The translations under genes were made by a program, and so were the position numbers. Of a stretch of DNA of 27,084 nucleotides, positions 5,311 to 18,348 are shown piece by piece. Origin of the DNA: a virus; the IMG/VR virus record IMGVR_UViG_3300021092_000165, positions 1 to 27,084 of that record; one strand, written 5' to 3'. Below the pieces are notes generated by a model. The model had not been told where the DNA came from. It searched no databases and saw only the letters and a program-made list of their open reading frames with translations. Each line of letters begins with the position of its first letter. The first letter of the stretch is position 1.

Positions 5311-5841
5311 TCAGCCCTGCTGATCCAGCTGCTTCGAGCCGGTGGTGTTCAGATCTTTGTTGTAGTGCCCAACCTGCGCGTAGCTCAGTACAGGCTTCTG
5401 GCTCATGCGGAAAAACACCATTTGACCGATCTTCATGCCGGAATACAGCGGCAGCGGCAGTAGCTGACGGCTGTTCTTCAGCTCTAGCGTCAACACGCTG
5501 CCATGCCAGCCTGGATCTGCGTAACCAGCGTGCAGGTTTTCGTAGCCTTCACGGGCGCGGCTGGACTTTAAGAAGAACAAGCCGGCGATGTTTTCTGGCA
5601 TGTTGAACACTTCAATGGTTTGAGCAAGGATGAATTGTCCAGGGCGCAGCAGGTAAGGGTCGTCCGCCGTTGCATTTGCAATGCTTAGCGGACGCATGTT
5701 TAAGTTTTCGACAGATTCAACCATGATCGTGTCGCCTAGCCGCAGGTCAAGACTGGCTGGATTGACTAACGCTTCGTCATAGTTGGGCACCATGCCGTCT
5801 GTGCAGAGTGCTTTGATCTCGTAGTCACAGAGGATGGTCAT
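5311..5841 (-). CDS. dcd: dCTP deaminase / dUTPase-family protein
   Basis: The 176-aa product has the trimeric dUTPase-like fold signature of dCTP deaminase. NPASLDLRLG is at 27-36, LRPGQFILAQT at 65-75, SSRAREG at 93-99 and DPGWHGSVLTLELKN at 109-123, with Glu120 at the catalytic glutamate position. The enzyme would convert dCTP to dUTP, feeding dTTP synthesis; some relatives also hydrolyse dUTP. The SSRAR motif fits dCTP deaminases better than plain dUTPases. It is the only nucleotide-metabolism enzyme in the window. It stands alone, with a 469-bp gap-rich stretch upstream, and an inverted repeat lies 58 bp before its start. Confidence 0.85.
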   Translation of the reverse strand: MTILCDYEIKALCTDGMVPNYDEALVNPASLDLRLGDTIMVESVENLNMRPLSIANATADDPYLLRPGQFILAQTIEVFNMPENIAGLFFLKSSRAREGYENLHAGYADPGWHGSVLTLELKNSRQLLPLPLYSGMKIGQMVFFRMSQKPVLSYAQVGHYNKDLNTTGSKQLDQQG

Positions 5842-6316: not shown

Positions 6317-6993
6317 TACTCTTTGTCCTTGTTAAAGTTGACAACCTCAGTTACAGCGCCTTTGAAGCCGTGGTAGTACAACACGCCTTTGCGCTGCTCA
6401 TCTGGGCAGAAGCATTCATAGCGAAGATCACGCACGATGTCGGTCAAAAGCGACAAAGCGTCATTCATTGCAAAAATAGCATCCTGGTGACATGTCTCAG
6501 TGTCGTCGTCGTACCAGTCACCCATTGCGTTGACGACTGCGCTTTGAATTACCTTGAGTTGAGCTTCATACCTTTCTAGCCATTCACCTTTTAGCACCAA
6601 GCGTTGCAGCTTGTCCTGGTGCATTTCTTTTTGCCGCTTCTCGGCATCGCTCTTGTTTTGATCCATGATTGGCGTTGTCAAAGTGCGCTCCTTGATAGCA
6701 GCTTGAGTTTCAGACGGTTGATTTGCCAAAGGCAAAGCCCACGCGATCAGATCATTGCCATTCTGTGCTGGACCACGGATGGCAGCACGGATCTGGACAG
6801 TAGAAGGCACGATTGCCCACCAATCTTCATTGTCTGGTTCGTAAACCAGTACGTCAACAAAGTCTTTGCACTCGCTGTGCATGACAGCAACTTTGCCGCC
6901 GTGCTTTTTGCCGTTGCTGTCAGTTTGTTTGCTTTGAAACCAGCGATACGGAACAGCTTCAATGTTCTTTGGAACTGTCGTCGTTTCAGTCAT
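6316..6993 (-). CDS. Conserved-looking hypothetical protein, 225 aa
   Basis: The N-terminal 85 residues look like a folded beta-rich domain (PYRWFQSK, KVAVMHSECKDFVDVLVYEP, DWWAIVPSTVQIRAAI). A proline/serine linker follows. A helical C-terminal half (about 115-210) has repeated lysine, glutamate and glutamine, a conserved-looking DWYDDDTETCHQDA, and two cysteines in YECFCPDEQ. No enzyme family is recognised. It is the largest unknown in the leftward block and overlaps neighbours on both sides, so it is co-translated with two small proteins. Confidence 0.7.
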   Translation of the reverse strand: MTETTTVPKNIEAVPYRWFQSKQTDSNGKKHGGKVAVMHSECKDFVDVLVYEPDNEDWWAIVPSTVQIRAAIRGPAQNGNDLIAWALPLANQPSETQAAIKERTLTTPIMDQNKSDAEKRQKEMHQDKLQRLVLKGEWLERYEAQLKVIQSAVVNAMGDWYDDDTETCHQDAIFAMNDALSLLTDIVRDLRYECFCPDEQRKGVLYYHGFKGAVTEVVNFNKDKE

Positions 6994-7193
6994 TGGAATC
7001 CCTCTTCAAGGTCAACGGATATGCCGCCATCAGTCCAGATTCGTGCAGCATAGAGTTTGCGTAGCTCACGCACTTCACTTGCTTTTTGCCAGTTGGCATG
7101 GCGCAGGAAGTAGTGTTCACGCGTAGTTTCCCATGCGTAGCCAGTGAAAATCAGCTCACTGGGAACAGATTTGACTGCAGTGCGGTAGTTCAT
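6990..7193 (-). CDS. Hypothetical protein, 67 aa
   Basis: The ATG at 7193 overlaps the stop of the 47-aa gene upstream in an ATGA arrangement, and its own stop overlaps the next start. The product contains GYAWETTREHYFLRHANWQ followed by a basic helix (VRELRKLYAAR). No domain is recognised. Coupling on both sides supports it as a real gene. Confidence 0.62.
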   Translation of the reverse strand: MNYRTAVKSVPSELIFTGYAWETTREHYFLRHANWQKASEVRELRKLYAARIWTDGGISVDLEEGFQ

Positions 7194-7333
7194 AAGCGGT
7201 GTTTTGCTGTGTGCAATAAACAGCGCTCAAGGTGTGTAGTTGGGGTAGACAGATTGATTGCGTCCACATCTGGACGTTTTGATAACAGCCAAAACAATAA
7301 ACGTGTTTGCCAGCTCAGGTTATAAGGATTCAT
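7190..7333 (-). CDS. Small hypothetical protein, 47 aa
   Basis: The ATG at 7333 is preceded at 7 nt by a perfect AGGAGG Shine-Dalgarno, one of the clearest in the window, and the stop forms ATGA with the next start. The product begins MNPYNLSWQTRLLFWLLSK and has one short hydrophobic stretch. The Shine-Dalgarno and coupling make it very likely to be translated; its function is unknown. Confidence 0.65.
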   Translation of the reverse strand: MNPYNLSWQTRLLFWLLSKRPDVDAINLSTPTTHLERCLLHTAKHRL

Positions 7334-7452
7334 CGCTGAACCTCCTGAGTGCCGCTATGCGTTGAACCATGATGCCCGCTGGCTTCAATGCCGATCATGG
7401 CAAAGACGGTCGCAGCAAAAAGAAAACAGATGAAGTTGTTAACGACGTTCAG
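7330..7452 (-). CDS. Possible small membrane protein, about 40 aa, start uncertain
   Basis: The frame ends in an ATGA overlap with the 47-aa gene and carries that gene's Shine-Dalgarno within its last codons. It contains a hydrophobic run FICFLFAATVFAMIGI. No ATG precedes that run close by. A CTG at 7452 would give 40 aa; an internal ATG leaves only 22 aa without most of the membrane span. The longer upward extension of this frame lies antisense-like within the 61-aa gene and looks random. Confidence 0.35.
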   Translation of the reverse strand: MNVVNNFICFLFAATVFAMIGIEASGHHGSTHSGTQEVQR

Positions 7453-7456
7453 CGTT

Positions 7457-7642
7457 TTAGTAGTTGTTCCACGCGTCCGCTTGCGGGACGTATTCGACGT
7501 GGAACGTCGCACCCTCGATGCGACAGGAACGTCTGAGAATGTCGAGCTTGTCATAGGCGACAGCTTCGAGAAACGCGGCAGAGCCGGTTGGGACGGTGCG
7601 TGTTCCAAGGTCATCGGTAATAGTGCAGAAGATTTCAAACAT
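7457..7642 (-). CDS. Hypothetical protein, 61 aa
   Basis: This leftward gene begins 4 bp after the stop of the 52-aa gene. The product starts MFEIFCTITDDLGTRTVPTG, has an alanine-rich helix and a beta-like end (GATFHVEYVP). This frame is chosen over the overlapping longer frame because it has a good ATG and a balanced composition. No family is recognised. Confidence 0.6.
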   Translation of the reverse strand: MFEIFCTITDDLGTRTVPTGSAAFLEAVAYDKLDILRRSCRIEGATFHVEYVPQADAWNNY

Positions 7643-13198: not shown

Positions 13199-13522
13199 AT
13201 GGCAACTCATCGCGGTACTACAGCAGAAACTGAACTACGCGCTCAACGCTTCGCTCGCATCATCGCTAACGGTGGGCGTAGGTCGGACTGTGTTCGCTTT
13301 GCAGCCGAAAACTGGGGGGTAGGAGAGCGCTCTGTTGATAAATACCTTCAGATGGCTCGTGATCAGCTACGCGCTGATTGGGACATCGAACGACCGCAAA
13401 TGATCGCTGATCTACTCTCCCAGTGCTCCACCCTGCAAATTGAAGCCCGTCGCGCTGGGCAATATCACATCGCACTTGGTGCTATCAACACCGCTGCCAG
13501 ATTGGCGCAGCTCTGCTCGTGA
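13199..13522 (+). CDS. terS: Terminase small subunit
   Basis: The 107-aa product starts MATHRGTTAETELRAQRFAR and contains an HTH-like stretch (RRSDCVRFAAENWGVGERSV) followed by a long helix, as in small terminase subunits that bind the packaging start site. It directly precedes the large subunit; the stop overlaps the next GTG (GTGA). The length is a little short for the family. Call based on HTH plus position. Confidence 0.75.
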   Translation: MATHRGTTAETELRAQRFARIIANGGRRSDCVRFAAENWGVGERSVDKYLQMARDQLRADWDIERPQMIADLLSQCSTLQIEARRAGQYHIALGAINTAARLAQLCS

Positions 13523-14868
13523 GCATTCTTTCTGCAGCGCCAGAAGGTCATATCCTCCAGCAACTCAACTATTCCGGCGAGCTAATCAATACTGATCAGC
13601 TCCTGGATCGCATCAAAGCAGATCTGCACCCTGGACAGCTTGCCTTTGTTGATGACAACACAACGCAGATCATTGGCATCAGCGCCGGCTATGGGGCCGG
13701 GAAAACCCGAGCTTTAGCGGCAAAAGCTGTCACACTCGCAGCCGCCAACCAAGGTTTCACTGGCGCTGTCATGGAGCCGACTGGTCCCCTAATCCGCGAT
13801 ATTTGGCAGACAGACTTTGAAGCCTTCCTGGAACACTACGAGATCCCCTACACCTTTCGCGCTAGCCCGCTGCCTGAGTACATGCTCCACCTGCCAGGCG
13901 GTGACACCAAGATTTTGTGCCGCAGCTTCGAGAACTGGAGCCGCATCATCGGCTTGAACCTTGCTTGGGTGCTTGCCGATGAGATCGACACTGTCAATCC
14001 AGCTATCGCCAACAAGGCATTCCCGAAGATCCTTGGTCGCCTACGCTCCGGCAACGTTCGCCAATTCGGTGCAGCATCTACGCCAGAAGGTTTCCGCTGG
14101 ATGTGGACTACCTTCGGCAGCGAGCAAGCCAAAGATCGTCAAGATCGCAAGCTCATCAAGATGCGGTCAGCAGACAACCCACACCTGCCGACAGATTTCA
14201 TTGAGCGTCTAGAAGCGAACTACGACCCCAATCTGCTCAAGGCATACCTTGACGGTGAGTTTGTAAACCTCACCACCGGCACCGTTTACGACCGCTTCGA
14301 CCGCAGCAAGCACGTCATCAGCAGCCTGCCAGACACTGACCGCGAACCGTTACGCATCGGCGTTGACTTCAACGTTGCCAACATGTCCGCCATCATCGGC
14401 GTCAAACTCGGCACCAACCTGCTCGTCATTGACGAGATCAGCGGTGCTCACGACACTGATGCCCTAGCGCAGCAGATCAAAGCACGCTACCCAGACCGTC
14501 GTATCTACATCTACCCAGACGCCTCAGGTGGTAACCGCAGCACCAACGCAACCCAAACCGACATCCAGATCCTCGAAAGCTACGGGATGTCGAACCAGTC
14601 ACCACGGGCGAACCCGCCAGTGCGTGACCGTGTATCCGCTGTCCAAGCGCTGCTAGAAAACGGCAAAGGGCAAGTGCGCCTACAAATCAGTCACACCTGC
14701 AAACGCCTGATCGAGTGCCTAGAACTCCAGTGCTACACAGAAAAGGGCGATCCTGACAAGGATGCCGGGCATGACCACATGAACGACGCGCTCGGCTACC
14801 TAATCTGGCGCGAGTTCAACCCACTTCACGCTGGCGCTGGCAGAAGTACTGGCGTCCGCCTGTACTAA
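13519..14868 (+). CDS. terL: Terminase large subunit (ATPase and nuclease)
   Basis: A GTG start at 13519 is supported by the overlap with terS. The 449-aa product has an ATPase domain with Walker A GYGAGKT at 57-63 and Walker B WVLADEID at 150-157. A coupling-type motif FGAASTPEGF lies near 185. The C-terminal RNase H-like nuclease shows its acidic residues in IGVDFNVANMSA, IYPDASGGN and HMNDALGYLIW. It pumps DNA into the prohead and cuts concatemers. All motifs are intact and the length is normal for siphophages. TATACT 5 bp after the stop may be a promoter for the next gene. Confidence 0.95.
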   Translation: MSILSAAPEGHILQQLNYSGELINTDQLLDRIKADLHPGQLAFVDDNTTQIIGISAGYGAGKTRALAAKAVTLAAANQGFTGAVMEPTGPLIRDIWQTDFEAFLEHYEIPYTFRASPLPEYMLHLPGGDTKILCRSFENWSRIIGLNLAWVLADEIDTVNPAIANKAFPKILGRLRSGNVRQFGAASTPEGFRWMWTTFGSEQAKDRQDRKLIKMRSADNPHLPTDFIERLEANYDPNLLKAYLDGEFVNLTTGTVYDRFDRSKHVISSLPDTDREPLRIGVDFNVANMSAIIGVKLGTNLLVIDEISGAHDTDALAQQIKARYPDRRIYIYPDASGGNRSTNATQTDIQILESYGMSNQSPRANPPVRDRVSAVQALLENGKGQVRLQISHTCKRLIECLELQCYTEKGDPDKDAGHDHMNDALGYLIWREFNPLHAGAGRSTGVRLY

Positions 14869-14905: not shown

Positions 14906-15244
14906 ATGCTCACCGGCTCTGATCTCATCGCCAAAGTCAAAGAATGCGGCGACATGAACAAGTCTGATCTCGTCCGCGAGTGTGGTTACGTCAAAGGCGA
15001 CAAGCTCTGCTTCACCCAGTTCTACGAAGCACTCCTTGAAGCCAAGGGCTTTGACCTAAAACCCGCCGCCAAGCGTGGTCGCAGCTTGAGCTACAAAACC
15101 AAGGTGCAATTCAACGGCAAACTGTCCATCGGTGAAGGTTACGTTCAGGAAATGGGTTTCAAACCCGGCGATGAGTTTGAGATCAAAGTGCGCGGCAAGT
15201 CTGTAACCTTGTCTGCTGCTGTTAACGAGCCTGTTGCTGCTTGA
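14906..15244 (+). CDS. cyAbrB-type transcriptional regulator
   Basis: The 112-aa product matches the cyanobacterial AbrB family closely. The N-terminal half shows LTGSDLIAKVKECGDMNKSD, then LVRECGYV and FTQFYEALLEAKGFDL. A basic linker AAKRGRSLSYKTKVQFNG is followed by the beta-hairpin DNA-binding part (GYVQEMGFKPGDEFEIKV). cyAbrB proteins are global regulators of carbon and nitrogen genes in cyanobacteria, and are also linked to photosynthesis and redox genes. Here one is carried between terminase and HNH genes with no other host gene nearby, so it is a phage-borne regulator. It may tune host metabolism or late phage genes. A rho-independent terminator follows within 25 bp of its stop. Confidence 0.9.
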   Translation: MLTGSDLIAKVKECGDMNKSDLVRECGYVKGDKLCFTQFYEALLEAKGFDLKPAAKRGRSLSYKTKVQFNGKLSIGEGYVQEMGFKPGDEFEIKVRGKSVTLSAAVNEPVAA

Positions 15245-15368: not shown

Positions 15369-15429
15369 GCTCTGATTGTGGTATGATCTGAACCGGATCG
15401 AACCAGGTCCGCCGACACCGTACCACAAA
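15360..15429 (+). promoter_or_regulatory. Promoter and inverted-repeat operator before HNH gene
   Basis: -35 TTGCGC (15360-15365), a 16-bp spacer and -10 TATGAT (15382-15387) face right. TTGTGGTA (15376-15383) and TACCACAA (15421-15428) are perfect inverted copies, the first overlapping the -10. The second continues into the HNH ATG. This fits control by the divergent RHH protein. Confidence 0.58.
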
Positions 15430-15890
15430 TGGAGGCTTACTACCAGTCAGCAGCTTGGCAACGCAAGCGGCAGCAACGCCTTGATCACGACCACCACACC
15501 TGCCAAGGTTGCGGCATTACCGCAGCTCAACTTGCAGAACTTGGCTGGTCAGCCTTGCAAGTGCATCACAAGAACGCTGGACCGCCGGACTTCAAGTACC
15601 CGTCATTTGGTAACGAGCAACTGTCAGATCTCCTGACGTTATGCCCAACCTGCCACGACGGCATCACCAATTCAGTCAGGCAGCAGCGTTTCAAGTTAGA
15701 TCCACGCAAGCAAGTGCAATCAACAAGCATTGCTGCACCTTCTCTTTCTGTACCGTCACAGACAAAACGTGTCCAACCTAACTACGATTCAGATCACAAT
15801 TTCGGGCGAGAGCCCATTGCTGTGCCACAACGGTCAAACAGCAGATCCGCGAAATACCTACGCCAAAGCAATGAAGGCGGTAAGCAGTAA
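15429..15890 (+). CDS. HNH endonuclease
   Basis: The 153-aa product has a zinc-stabilised HNH domain. Cys25 and Cys28 lie in CQGCG, His46-His47 in LQVHHKN is the catalytic first H, Cys72 and Cys75 lie in LCPTCH, and His76 is there too. The start MEAYYQSAAWQRKRQQRL is typical of phage HNH proteins near terminase, where the nuclease aids packaging cuts in some phages. After residue 90 the sequence is polar and unlike the family. Its last 122 bp overlap the next gene in another frame, so the tail may carry no function. Confidence 0.85.
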   Translation: MEAYYQSAAWQRKRQQRLDHDHHTCQGCGITAAQLAELGWSALQVHHKNAGPPDFKYPSFGNEQLSDLLTLCPTCHDGITNSVRQQRFKLDPRKQVQSTSIAAPSLSVPSQTKRVQPNYDSDHNFGREPIAVPQRSNSRSAKYLRQSNEGGKQ

Positions 15891-16365
15891 GCGGAAGAAA
15901 ACTGACGCTGACTACGACGAAATGGCAAGGCTTGAGTGGCTTGCTGGCTTGTACCGTTTCCGCGACGAGCTGGTCATTCCCGACTACGTGCTTGAAGCGG
16001 TGTTCATCAACGGCGCCAAGAAGTCAAAGCGTGGTCCACAAGCCAAGTGCGGCATGTTCTTTACTGAGCACGCACCGCTTGATTTCCCTGGCAAGCCGGG
16101 TGAAATCAACGACGACACCCTAAGCGAGATGTTCGCTAGCGGCGACTTTACCCATACGGTTGGCGTCAAAGTCGGCATGGCAAAGGTCATGCGCACTAGG
16201 CCGATGTTCCGCAACTGGAGCTTGGTCGCAACTGCGCAGTTTGACCCTGATGTGCTGAACCTGCGTGACATTGAAGAGATCGCCGCTGATGCCGGCAAGC
16301 TGGTCGGCCTAGGCGACTGGCGGCCTAAGCATGGGCGCTTCAGCACTGGCATCCAAGTGGTGTAA
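15769..16365 (+). CDS. Conserved phage protein of unknown function, 198 aa
   Basis: The frame opens with a TTG at 15730. The GTG at 15769 is preferred because the recognisable sequence starts soon after (IQITISGESPLLCHNGQT). The product continues AMKAVSSKRKKTDADY, LEWLAGLYRF, VFINGAKKSKRGPQAK and ends LVGLGDWRPKHGRFSTG. I recognise this as a family found in many phages, without a known function. The compact, conserved blocks point to a globular protein. The pentamer-repeat region begins 10 bp after its stop. Confidence 0.75.
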   Translation: MSNLTTIQITISGESPLLCHNGQTADPRNTYAKAMKAVSSKRKKTDADYDEMARLEWLAGLYRFRDELVIPDYVLEAVFINGAKKSKRGPQAKCGMFFTEHAPLDFPGKPGEINDDTLSEMFASGDFTHTVGVKVGMAKVMRTRPMFRNWSLVATAQFDPDVLNLRDIEEIAADAGKLVGLGDWRPKHGRFSTGIQVV

Positions 16366-16473
16366 GTCCAGACGTGGCAGGATGCGGTACGGAACGGCAG
16401 GGCTCGGCGGGGCAGGATGAGGCTCGGCGGGACGCAATAGTGTTTGCAAGGGCGTGGTAAAAGCTGATGATCT

Positions 16474-16503
16474 CAGCGCTGAGGGCTTCGGCCCTCTCCG
16501 CTG
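16474..16503 (+). other. Hairpin 1 of the pentamer region
   Basis: Outer stem CAGCG/CGCTG, a CT/TC internal loop, inner stem GAGGGC/GCCCTC and a TTCG tetraloop. GGTTCTTAGG follows. Confidence 0.75.
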
Positions 16504-16601
16504 GGTTCTTAGGAATCCAGATCAGGCGGGTTATGGCTCGGTCGTGTCGGTTCAGGTTCGGTCAGGTCGGGTTAGGTGTGCTGCGGTAAAAGCTGCAGAC
16601 G

Positions 16602-16633
16602 GCAGCACTGGGGGCTTCGGCTCCCTCTGCTGC
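16602..16633 (+). other. Hairpin 2 of the pentamer region
   Basis: Outer stem GCAGCA/TGCTGC, a CT/TC internal loop, inner stem GGGGGC/GCTCCC with one G-T wobble and a TTCG loop. TCTCTTT follows. The preceding CTGCAGACGGCAG is shared with hairpin 3. Confidence 0.75.
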
Positions 16634-16730
16634 TCTCTTTGGGGGCAGACATGGTTAAATCTGGTCGGATATGTTGCGGATCGGTGCGTTCTGTTATGGC
16701 GGGCTCAGGTAAAACATGGACTGCAGACGG

Positions 16731-16758
16731 CAGTACGGAGGGTCCGCCCTCCCTACTG
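16731..16758 (+). other. Hairpin 3 of the pentamer region
   Basis: Outer stem CAGTA/TACTG, a C/C mismatch, inner stem GGAGGG/CCCTCC and a TCCG loop. TTCTCTC follows. Confidence 0.75.
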
Positions 16759-16845
16759 TTCTCTCAAGAACAGGTATGGCAGGATTCGATTCGGCATGGC
16801 AGCGCATTGCCAGGTTGGGCGGGGTTCGGTTGGATGAGGTAACTT

Positions 16846-16880
16846 GGGGTTCGGGTAACACCGAACCCCTTAAACTTTGT
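16846..16880 (+). terminator. Terminator-like hairpin upstream of portal gene
   Basis: GGGGTTCGG (16846-16854) and CCGAACCCC (16861-16869) form a perfect 9-bp stem with a GTAACA loop, followed by TTAAACTTTGT. It closes the pentamer region 17 bp before the portal ATG. Confidence 0.7.
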
Positions 16881-16896
16881 CTATTGATGTAGTGCC

Positions 16897-18348
16897 ATGT
16901 ATTCAGGTTTCCGTGCGTATGACCGCCCTTTGGCAACTCGCACGGTTGCCAAGGTTAACGATCCAAACACTGCGTGGCACGCGCAAGAAGCACACTGGAT
17001 TTTGCTTGAAGATTTGCTAGGCGGTACTTTTACGATGCGAAAAAAGCATCGCCGCTATCTTCCACAAGAGCCGAGAGAAATTGATGAATCGTATGATAAT
17101 CGTTTAGCTAGAAGCGTTTGTCCGCCATATTACGTTCGGCTAGAACGGATGCTGGCTGGCATGTTGACGCGCAAGCCGGTCAGGTTAAACGATGTCTCTG
17201 ATCTGGTCCGCGAGCAACTATTCGATGTAGACCTGCTCGGTAACGACCTTAACGTCTGGACCTATGAAACCGCACGCAAGATGGTGCGTTACGGGCATGT
17301 TGGCGTGCTTGTGGATGCACCTGCTGCTGGTGAAAACGGAAGACCGTATTGGTGCAGTTATACGCCGCGTGACATCTTAGGCTGGCGCACTGAATTAAAA
17401 GATGGCGCACAGCAACTGAGCCAGCTTCGCCTGATGGAACGAGTGATCGTTGCTGATGGGTTGTATGGCGAAAAGGAAGTCGAACAGGTGCGTGTGCTAA
17501 CCCCTGGCGGGTTTGAGATCCACCGCCGCGATGAAAAGACCAGCGGCTTTGAAATCTTCGACAGCGGCACCACAACGCTAGACACCATCCCATTCAGCGT
17601 TGCCTACGCTAACCGTATCAACTTTATGGAATCACGTCCGCCGATGGAAGACATCGCGGAGCTAAACCTTAAGGCGTATCAAATCCAATCTGATCTAGAC
17701 AATCAACTACACATCAGCGCAGTGCCGATGCTGGCATTCTTTGGCTTCCCATCTGCTGCCGAGGAAGTAAGCGCCGGTCCCGGTGAAGCAATCGCCTTTC
17801 CATCAGAAGGACGGGCAGAATACATCGAACCAAGCGGCAACAGCTTTGAAGCGCAGTTCAAGCGCCTAGAACAGATCGCGTATCAAATCAACGAACTAGG
17901 TTTGTCCGCTGTGCTCGGTCAGAAGCTATCGGCTGAAACCGCCGAAGCCAAGCGCATCGACCGCAGCCAAGGCGACAGCACCATGATGGTCATCGCGCAG
18001 AACATGCAAGACCTGATCGATAACTGCCTGACCTATCACGCGCAATACCTAAACATCCCTGAAGCCGGTAGCAGTTATATCAACCGCGACTTCTTGGGCT
18101 CGCGCCTTGAACCGCAGGAGATCCAATCTCTGCTGCAGCTTTATACCGCTGGCACCATCACGCAGAAAACCCTCCTCGATCAGCTCAGCGAAGGTGAAAT
18201 CCTTGGCGATGACTTTGATGTAGAAGAGGAACTAGAAGCTACGCAAAATGGCGGCCTGATCGAGATGGCGCAGCCTGAGCCACGGCAAATGCAACAAATG
18301 CCTGAGGAATCGCCAGACGACGAAGACGAAGAACAAATCCCGGCATGA
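16897..18348 (+). CDS. Portal protein (DUF4055-type)
   Basis: The 483-aa product has the features of DUF4055 portal proteins. EAHWILLEDLLGGTFTMR is near the start, ESYDNRLARSVCPPYYVRLE at about 63-82, and GMLTRKPVRL marks the usual 'G-x-x-x-x-[KR]-P' site. Next is YGHVGVLVDAP, then YTPRDILGWR, a helical stretch at about 250-340 (DLDNQLHISAVPML), and a SAETAEAKRIDRSQGDS helix. An acidic tail with many E and D closes it. It forms the dodecameric ring through which DNA enters the head. Its place after terminase and before the head-morphogenesis gene is standard. Confidence 0.87.
   Translation: MYSGFRAYDRPLATRTVAKVNDPNTAWHAQEAHWILLEDLLGGTFTMRKKHRRYLPQEPREIDESYDNRLARSVCPPYYVRLERMLAGMLTRKPVRLNDVSDLVREQLFDVDLLGNDLNVWTYETARKMVRYGHVGVLVDAPAAGENGRPYWCSYTPRDILGWRTELKDGAQQLSQLRLMERVIVADGLYGEKEVEQVRVLTPGGFEIHRRDEKTSGFEIFDSGTTTLDTIPFSVAYANRINFMESRPPMEDIAELNLKAYQIQSDLDNQLHISAVPMLAFFGFPSAAEEVSAGPGEAIAFPSEGRAEYIEPSGNSFEAQFKRLEQIAYQINELGLSAVLGQKLSAETAEAKRIDRSQGDSTMMVIAQNMQDLIDNCLTYHAQYLNIPEAGSSYINRDFLGSRLEPQEIQSLLQLYTAGTITQKTLLDQLSEGEILGDDFDVEEELEATQNGGLIEMAQPEPRQMQQMPEESPDDEDEEQIPA

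Follow-up and report, generated by a model that had tools for sequence, protein, structure and literature searches.

A predicted phage VIPR locus whose last guide RNA matches the portal genes of related phages

Genes, guide tracts and hairpins of the locus

The window, which is the whole stretch of DNA that was analysed, covers positions 1 to 27,084 (27,084 nt) of IMG/VR virus record IMGVR_UViG_3300021092_000165. Between its terminase and portal genes lie an AbrB-like gene, an HNH-nuclease-like gene, a vipr gene, and four G-rich arrays, each followed by a hairpin (Table 1). The portal protein shares 79% identity with its counterpart in Cyanophage KBS-S-2A, an isolate that is a phage of Synechococcus WH7803, and for this reason the window phage is most likely a cyanophage. 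Searches against Rfam and for tRNA and tmRNA genes returned no match, and neither did a megablast search of the array region against a phage collection.

Table 1. Features of the locus, in window coordinates
Feature	Position	Strand	Remarks
Terminase gene	13519-14868		
AbrB-like gene	14906-15244		
HNH-nuclease-like gene	15429..15890	+	153 aa; overlaps vipr start; PHROG HNH, E down to 3.7e-11
vipr	15769..16365	+	GTG start; predicted RAMP-family guide-RNA-binding protein; phrog_4652, E=3.6e-48
vrRNA 1 guide tract	16371..16460	+	17 GGYNN-like units + GGTAA; NN letters GT AG GC AC AC AG TC GG AG GA TC GG GC AG TT AG GT
vrRNA 1 tail	16461..16519	+	hairpin 16474-16503 (CAGCG-CT-GAGGGC-TTCG-GCCCTC-TC-CGCTG) + small 3' hairpin; fold z=-3.1; covarying stems
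vrRNA 2 guide tract	16520..16589	+	13 units + GGTAA; NN letters CA GG AT TC CG CG CA TC CA CG TA GT GC
vrRNA 2 tail	16590..16647	+	hairpin 16602-16633; fold z=-3.3; covarying stems
vrRNA 3 guide tract	16648..16712	+	12 units + GGTAA; NN letters AT TA CT CG AT GC TC GC CT AT GG CA
vrRNA 3 tail	16713..16772	+	hairpin 16731-16758; fold z=-3.4; covarying stems
vrRNA 4 (terminal) guide tract	16773..16842	+	13 units + GGTAA; NN letters AT AG TC TC AT AG AT CA TG GG TC TG GA
vrRNA 4 terminal hairpin	16843..16880	+	9-bp stem 16846-16854/16861-16869; fold z=-3.4
Portal protein gene	16897..18348	+	phrog_145 portal, E=2.4e-111; predicted target is its homologues in relatives
Own copy of vrRNA 4 target	16981..17018	-	inside portal gene; 6/26 mismatches

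VIPR, described in 2026, has been proposed as a possible precursor of CRISPR (PMC13142463). According to that paper, a VIPR system consists of a RAMP protein and vrRNAs, in which GGY and NN units alternate ahead of a structured 3' tail. A vrRNA is defined there by 9-16 YNNGG repeats with a conserved GGY and a hypervariable NN, and its NN dinucleotides read double-stranded DNA in such a way that a single base between neighbours is skipped, as was shown for the system of Escherichia phage SUSP1 (PMC13142463). Judged from its sequence, the window locus is of this already published kind.

Evidence for the protein component comes from a phmmer match of the vipr product to the SUSP1 Vipr protein (PDB 36pp_D) with an E value of 3.9e-28 over 189 aa. 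The AlphaFold model of the product (pLDDT 86.5) found Csm3/Cas7-type CRISPR subunits as its best Foldseek matches, with modest TM scores of 0.4-0.5. The gene is thus assigned as vipr, and its product is predicted to adopt a RAMP fold; PADLOC made no Vipr call. Relatives of the protein with 70-96% identity were found at 80 loci in IMG/VR, and the GTDB genomes yielded a single distant one, in Roseomonas. The latter lies on a bacterial genome contig of Roseomonas acroporae (L163, 3700-4720), where an HNH gene and vipr are accompanied by a single vrRNA-like array.

The arrays had been described beforehand, from the letters of the window, as four stretches read in 5-bp steps and each closed by GGTAA. 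They do exist, at 16371-16842, the earlier coordinates being correct to a few bases, and GGTAA is the final unit of all four. Autocorrelation against 2000 dinucleotide shuffles gave GG peaks at lags 5, 10, 15 and 20, the excess being strongest when all four arrays were taken together. In the joined arrays, 20 GG were observed at lag 5 against 10.2 expected (p=0.002), and the z-score at lag 20 was 5.6; array 3 by itself was not significant at lag 5. When both strands were scanned for phased GGYNN, only these four segments (scores 15.6-27.2) exceeded the largest maximum of 100 block-shuffled windows (13.6; mean maximum 9.3), and the rest gave weak noise. The unit counts are 12, 13, 13 and 17, and 178 unique guides were collected across the window and its relatives, with GGY conserved and NN hypervariable. 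In vrRNA 1 the count of 17 is one above the published range; several of its units are far from GGY, and this vrRNA may have decayed.

The shared architecture ascribed to the first three hairpins was recovered as well, consisting of a 5-7 bp outer stem, a symmetric internal loop of 1-2 nt, a 6-bp inner stem and a UUCG or UCCG loop, and the fourth is a perfect 9-bp stem, as had been noted. Fold z-scores of all four fall between -3.1 and -3.4. A consensus hairpin was obtained over 154 aligned tails, in which 86-96% of cells were paired and many two-sided changes occurred (for example, A-T in 95 tails and G-C in 30; C-G in 101 and T-A in 26; G-C in 91 and C-G in 28). The terminal hairpin is either a different tail of the last vrRNA or its terminator. 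The last arrays of relatives likewise close with a simple hairpin and not with the standard tail.

Do relatives with the upstream gene keep the arrays? The preliminary description had named homologous phages with neither periodicity nor hairpins as the outcome that would speak against its account of the region, and the opposite was found: arrays followed by hairpins lie directly downstream of vipr in 79 of the 80 IMG/VR relatives, and the fetched contig of the sole exception (L130) stops ~200 nt after vipr. Across these relatives the NN letters vary freely while GGY and the tails stay, in agreement with the proposed selection on RNA architecture and not on sequence.

The second protein-coding component of the locus is the HNH-nuclease-like gene. 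It scores just under the cut-off of Pfam HNH; the zinc Cys pairs and both His of the motif are conserved, and the motif Asn is replaced by Asp. In all 80 loci whose upstream sequence was long enough to tell, the Roseomonas locus included, an HNH gene lies before vipr and overlaps the vipr start; it occurs in 0/78 portal relatives that have no vipr. This makes it a candidate VIPR accessory protein (vap) gene.

Targets of the terminal guides

Read with one base skipped between dinucleotides, vrRNA 4 matches the portal gene of three relatives (L013, L058 and L095) at 25 of 26 positions, on the strand opposite to the gene and 84-122 nt from its start. The portal gene of the isolate KBS-S-2A is matched equally well (25/26). 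The single mismatch obtained with the 1-nt skip compares with 9 mismatches when the skip is set to 0 or 2, and when the order of the units was shuffled 2000 times the count never fell below 5. When the inner 22 letters of vrRNA 4 were used to scan IMG/VR, at least 120 contigs were retrieved. All 73 contigs that were newly fetched and checked carried the site in a portal homologue, on the strand opposite to the gene, and 11 of the 73 matched at 25/26; an exact 26/26 target was not found in IMG/VR. More broadly, decoding of the 178 unique guides against 1.1 Mb of loci produced an excess of matches solely with the 1-nt skip.

For vrRNAs 1-3, neither the compared loci nor the IMG/VR sub-pattern matches yielded a target. 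The IMG/VR sub-pattern search returned one match for vrRNA 1 and, with two different sub-patterns, 0 and then 19 matches for vrRNA 2, none of which extends beyond chance; for vrRNA 3 a single 9-unit match failed when extended.

The difference between the last guide and the others holds across VIPR loci. In 31 loci with a portal gene close downstream, which contain 18 distinct terminal and 48 non-terminal guides, a portal match was defined as at most 20% mismatch with the 1-nt skip. By this threshold, portals were matched by 17 of the 18 terminal guides, compared with 1 of the 48 non-terminal ones. Shuffled guides gave no match (0/360 and 0/960, or 0/1320), and skips of 0 or 2 left zero matching guides in the same loci. 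In all 12 portal-matching guides that were examined, representing 7 distinct sites on both strands, the skipped base is the codon wobble position. Because its skip falls there, vrRNA 4 tolerates synonymous change and covers much of the phage family.

When guides were searched against their own locus, imperfect sites were seen to gather near the cassette edges. At a threshold of 27% mismatch, 16 of 19 own-locus matches lay within about 400 nt of an edge, and the imperfect copies were positioned either 47-366 nt beyond the array or 646-688 nt ahead of vipr. The cluster takes in the region just before the HNH gene, which corresponds in targeted relatives to the 3' end of the terminase large subunit gene (a name read from the sequence). 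Terminal guides of three loci (L105, L108 and L110) match this putative terminase large subunit 3' end in L112, L129, L149 and L151, that is, on the cassette's other flank, with 3 mismatches of 22-28. The cassette site is empty in 21 relatives, in which the AbrB gene directly precedes the portal gene, and KBS-S-2A has a short gap only. In one locus (L015), a tRNA-like sequence between the AbrB-like gene and the portal gene, the latter at 5426, takes the site that the VIPR cassette occupies in other phages.

How does the phage's own portal gene compare with those of its relatives? With 6 of 26 letters of vrRNA 4 mismatched, the own gene should be spared; at the site it encodes the peptide AQEAHWILLEDLL, compared with QEPHWILIEDLI in KBS-S-2A. 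For 12 guides the own portal was the best match in 0/12, carrying 3-18 mismatches against 0-4 in the best-matching gene. For some guides the own portal does not stand out from those of relatives, which makes active self-avoidance less certain than the plainer statement that the guides are not aimed at self. Most guide sites lie within 180 nt of the start of the portal gene. There, at codon positions 1 and 2 and relative to the rest of the gene, divergence between VIPR carriers and non-carriers is higher than among non-carriers (-0.13 to -0.21 against -0.02 to -0.09; 0/500 label permutations, a procedure that ignores phylogeny). This pattern is suggestive of selection to escape guides and does not resemble recent co-conversion.

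In the final comparison, VIPR-less relatives, a set mostly recruited by similarity to the window portal and from which vrRNA 4-pattern recruits were left out, matched terminal guides slightly better on average than VIPR carriers did. Carriers are matched too: the terminal guide of another locus (L087) agrees with the window's own portal gene at 24 of 26 letters (2 mismatches). For this reason the conflict probably also sets VIPR carriers against one another, and VIPR-bearing phages may target each other.

Interference and its alternatives

It appears, with a probability of about 85%, that the locus is a phage-encoded VIPR system whose last vrRNA is aimed at the portal genes of rivals, i.e., RNA-guided interference against close competitors. 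By sequence and homology, the system comprises the HNH-like accessory gene, vipr and the four vrRNAs, each made of GGY/NN pentamers and a structured 3' tail. The code and the mode of action are borrowed from the account of SUSP1 in PMC13142463. By that analogy, the vrRNAs would be transcribed, processed and assembled with Vipr into a ribonucleoprotein, in which the GGY frame is presumably covered by Vipr and the NN dinucleotides are left exposed. These dinucleotides would then bind double-stranded DNA by pairing with it, skipping one base between them. By its sequence, vrRNA 4 is directed at the portal gene of related cyanophages, within 125 nt of the gene's start and on the opposite strand. 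What would this do to a phage that carries the matching sequence? The likely outcome is that an essential head gene is repressed in a competitor, whether co-infecting or superinfecting. As the HNH gene is present, cutting is conceivable and perhaps adds to the repression. The phage probably uses vrRNA 4 in this way to sabotage rivals, and would benefit in mixed infections.

A related but unlikely model is RNA-guided homing or marker exclusion. Here the cassette of HNH, Vipr and vrRNAs would cut, in the rival, the allele of the gene that flanks the cassette's insertion site, and repair templated by the VIPR genome would carry the cassette, together with its linked resistant portal allele, into the rival. 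HNH-partnered VIPR systems would then be homing or gene-drive-like phage elements whose last guide kills or converts the rival's flanking allele, the own linked allele being protected by divergence; we regard this, too, as improbable. Two features of homing are present, namely a target beside the own insertion site and an empty site in the targets. The constant pairing of HNH with vipr, its absence from VIPR-less relatives, the clustering of imperfect own copies at the cassette edges, and the aim of terminal guides at cassette-flanking genes all fit the model, and phages are known to injure rivals with HNH homing enzymes (PMC11620839). However, co-conversion would raise the similarity of portal 5' ends among carriers, and the opposite was seen, namely a more divergent 5' end; the model thus goes unsupported by this test. 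The Asp in place of the motif Asn and the non-terminal vrRNAs, which are not aimed at the portal, also argue against it.

The position of the last array directly before the portal gene, and the imperfect site within that gene, could also mean that the portal gene or head operon tuned by the last vrRNA is the phage's own. Such autoregulation is quite improbable, given that for none of the 12 guides was the own portal the best match. Least probable of all is the idea that the arrays are DNA elements, whether for packaging, recombination or protein binding, or degenerate microsatellites. Their low-complexity, G-rich look and their place between terminase and portal genes invite it, but it is contradicted by the Vipr homology, the covarying RNA hairpins, the hypervariable NN letters and the decoding to real targets solely with the 1-nt skip. 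Among the roles offered in the preliminary description, a series of small RNAs is the one that stands: GGY would be the protein-binding VIPR scaffold and NN the guide letters, and array 4 decodes to a real target. Quadruplexes, a platform built on DNA half-turns, and a packaging or recombination site found no support.

Relation to known systems

The published VIPR tree has seven types, and the closest known systems are the type II VIPRs of Escherichia phage SUSP1 and a Pseudomonas fulva prophage (PMC13142463). The window locus resembles these in its RAMP-like Vipr, for which the match to SUSP1 is full-length (E=3.9e-28), in having several GGY/NN vrRNAs with a structured 3' tail beside vipr, and in the 1-nt skip at the wobble base with targets in competing phages. 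It differs in the tail, which here folds into a hairpin whose internal loop is symmetric; in the target, which is the portal gene of close relatives here and satellites or lysogeny regulators there; and in the aim of the last guide at the gene adjoining the cassette. A pseudoknot in the tail is a feature of the SUSP1 clade (PMC13142463). Class 1 CRISPR-Cas, with its Cas7/Csm3 backbone and crRNA, shares the RAMP fold, the hairpin-capped guide and the periodic interruption of base pairing. Unlike it, the window locus has no CRISPR repeats or adaptation genes, and its guide consists of gapped dinucleotides in a GGY frame. A further parallel is gp210 of phage PhiPA3 (PMC11620839), a phage-borne HNH protein that acts on a co-infecting relative, as may be the case here; the gp210 site is recognised by protein, whereas specificity here would come from the vrRNA.

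HNH, portal and cyanophages are not mentioned in the main text of PMC13142463. Relative to that text, the HNH-partnered cyanophage clade, the portal target and the flanking-gene rule may be new. The locus extends VIPR to a clade of cyanophages in which the partner is nuclease-like, and it confirms the gapped 1-nt skip code independently, from sequence alone. By the flanking-gene rule, a guide adjoining a head gene targets the rivals' allele of that gene, and the own allele is mismatched. This suggests how a phage genome that recombines could keep its interference guides linked to the immunity that goes with them. KBS-S-2A on Synechococcus WH7803 offers a known isolate for a direct test.

Other VIPR loci are arranged differently. 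In the related known VIPR phages LittleE, MakoManhole, Medea1 and BPS15Q2, a phrog_5926 gene lies downstream of vipr, in contrast to the HNH gene upstream of it here. The GGYNN arrays of Mycobacterium phage LittleE (L298, 2176-3960) and Gordonia phage MakoManhole (L295, 2869-3078) have minihelix-like tails resembling a tRNA acceptor/T-arm minihelix (GGTTCGAGTC loop), possibly reflecting tRNA-like processing or mimicry. Apparently another VIPR type is present on a different phage contig (L159, 5862-7573), where a RAMP-like gene (6992-7573, - strand) is flanked by long GGCNN arrays.
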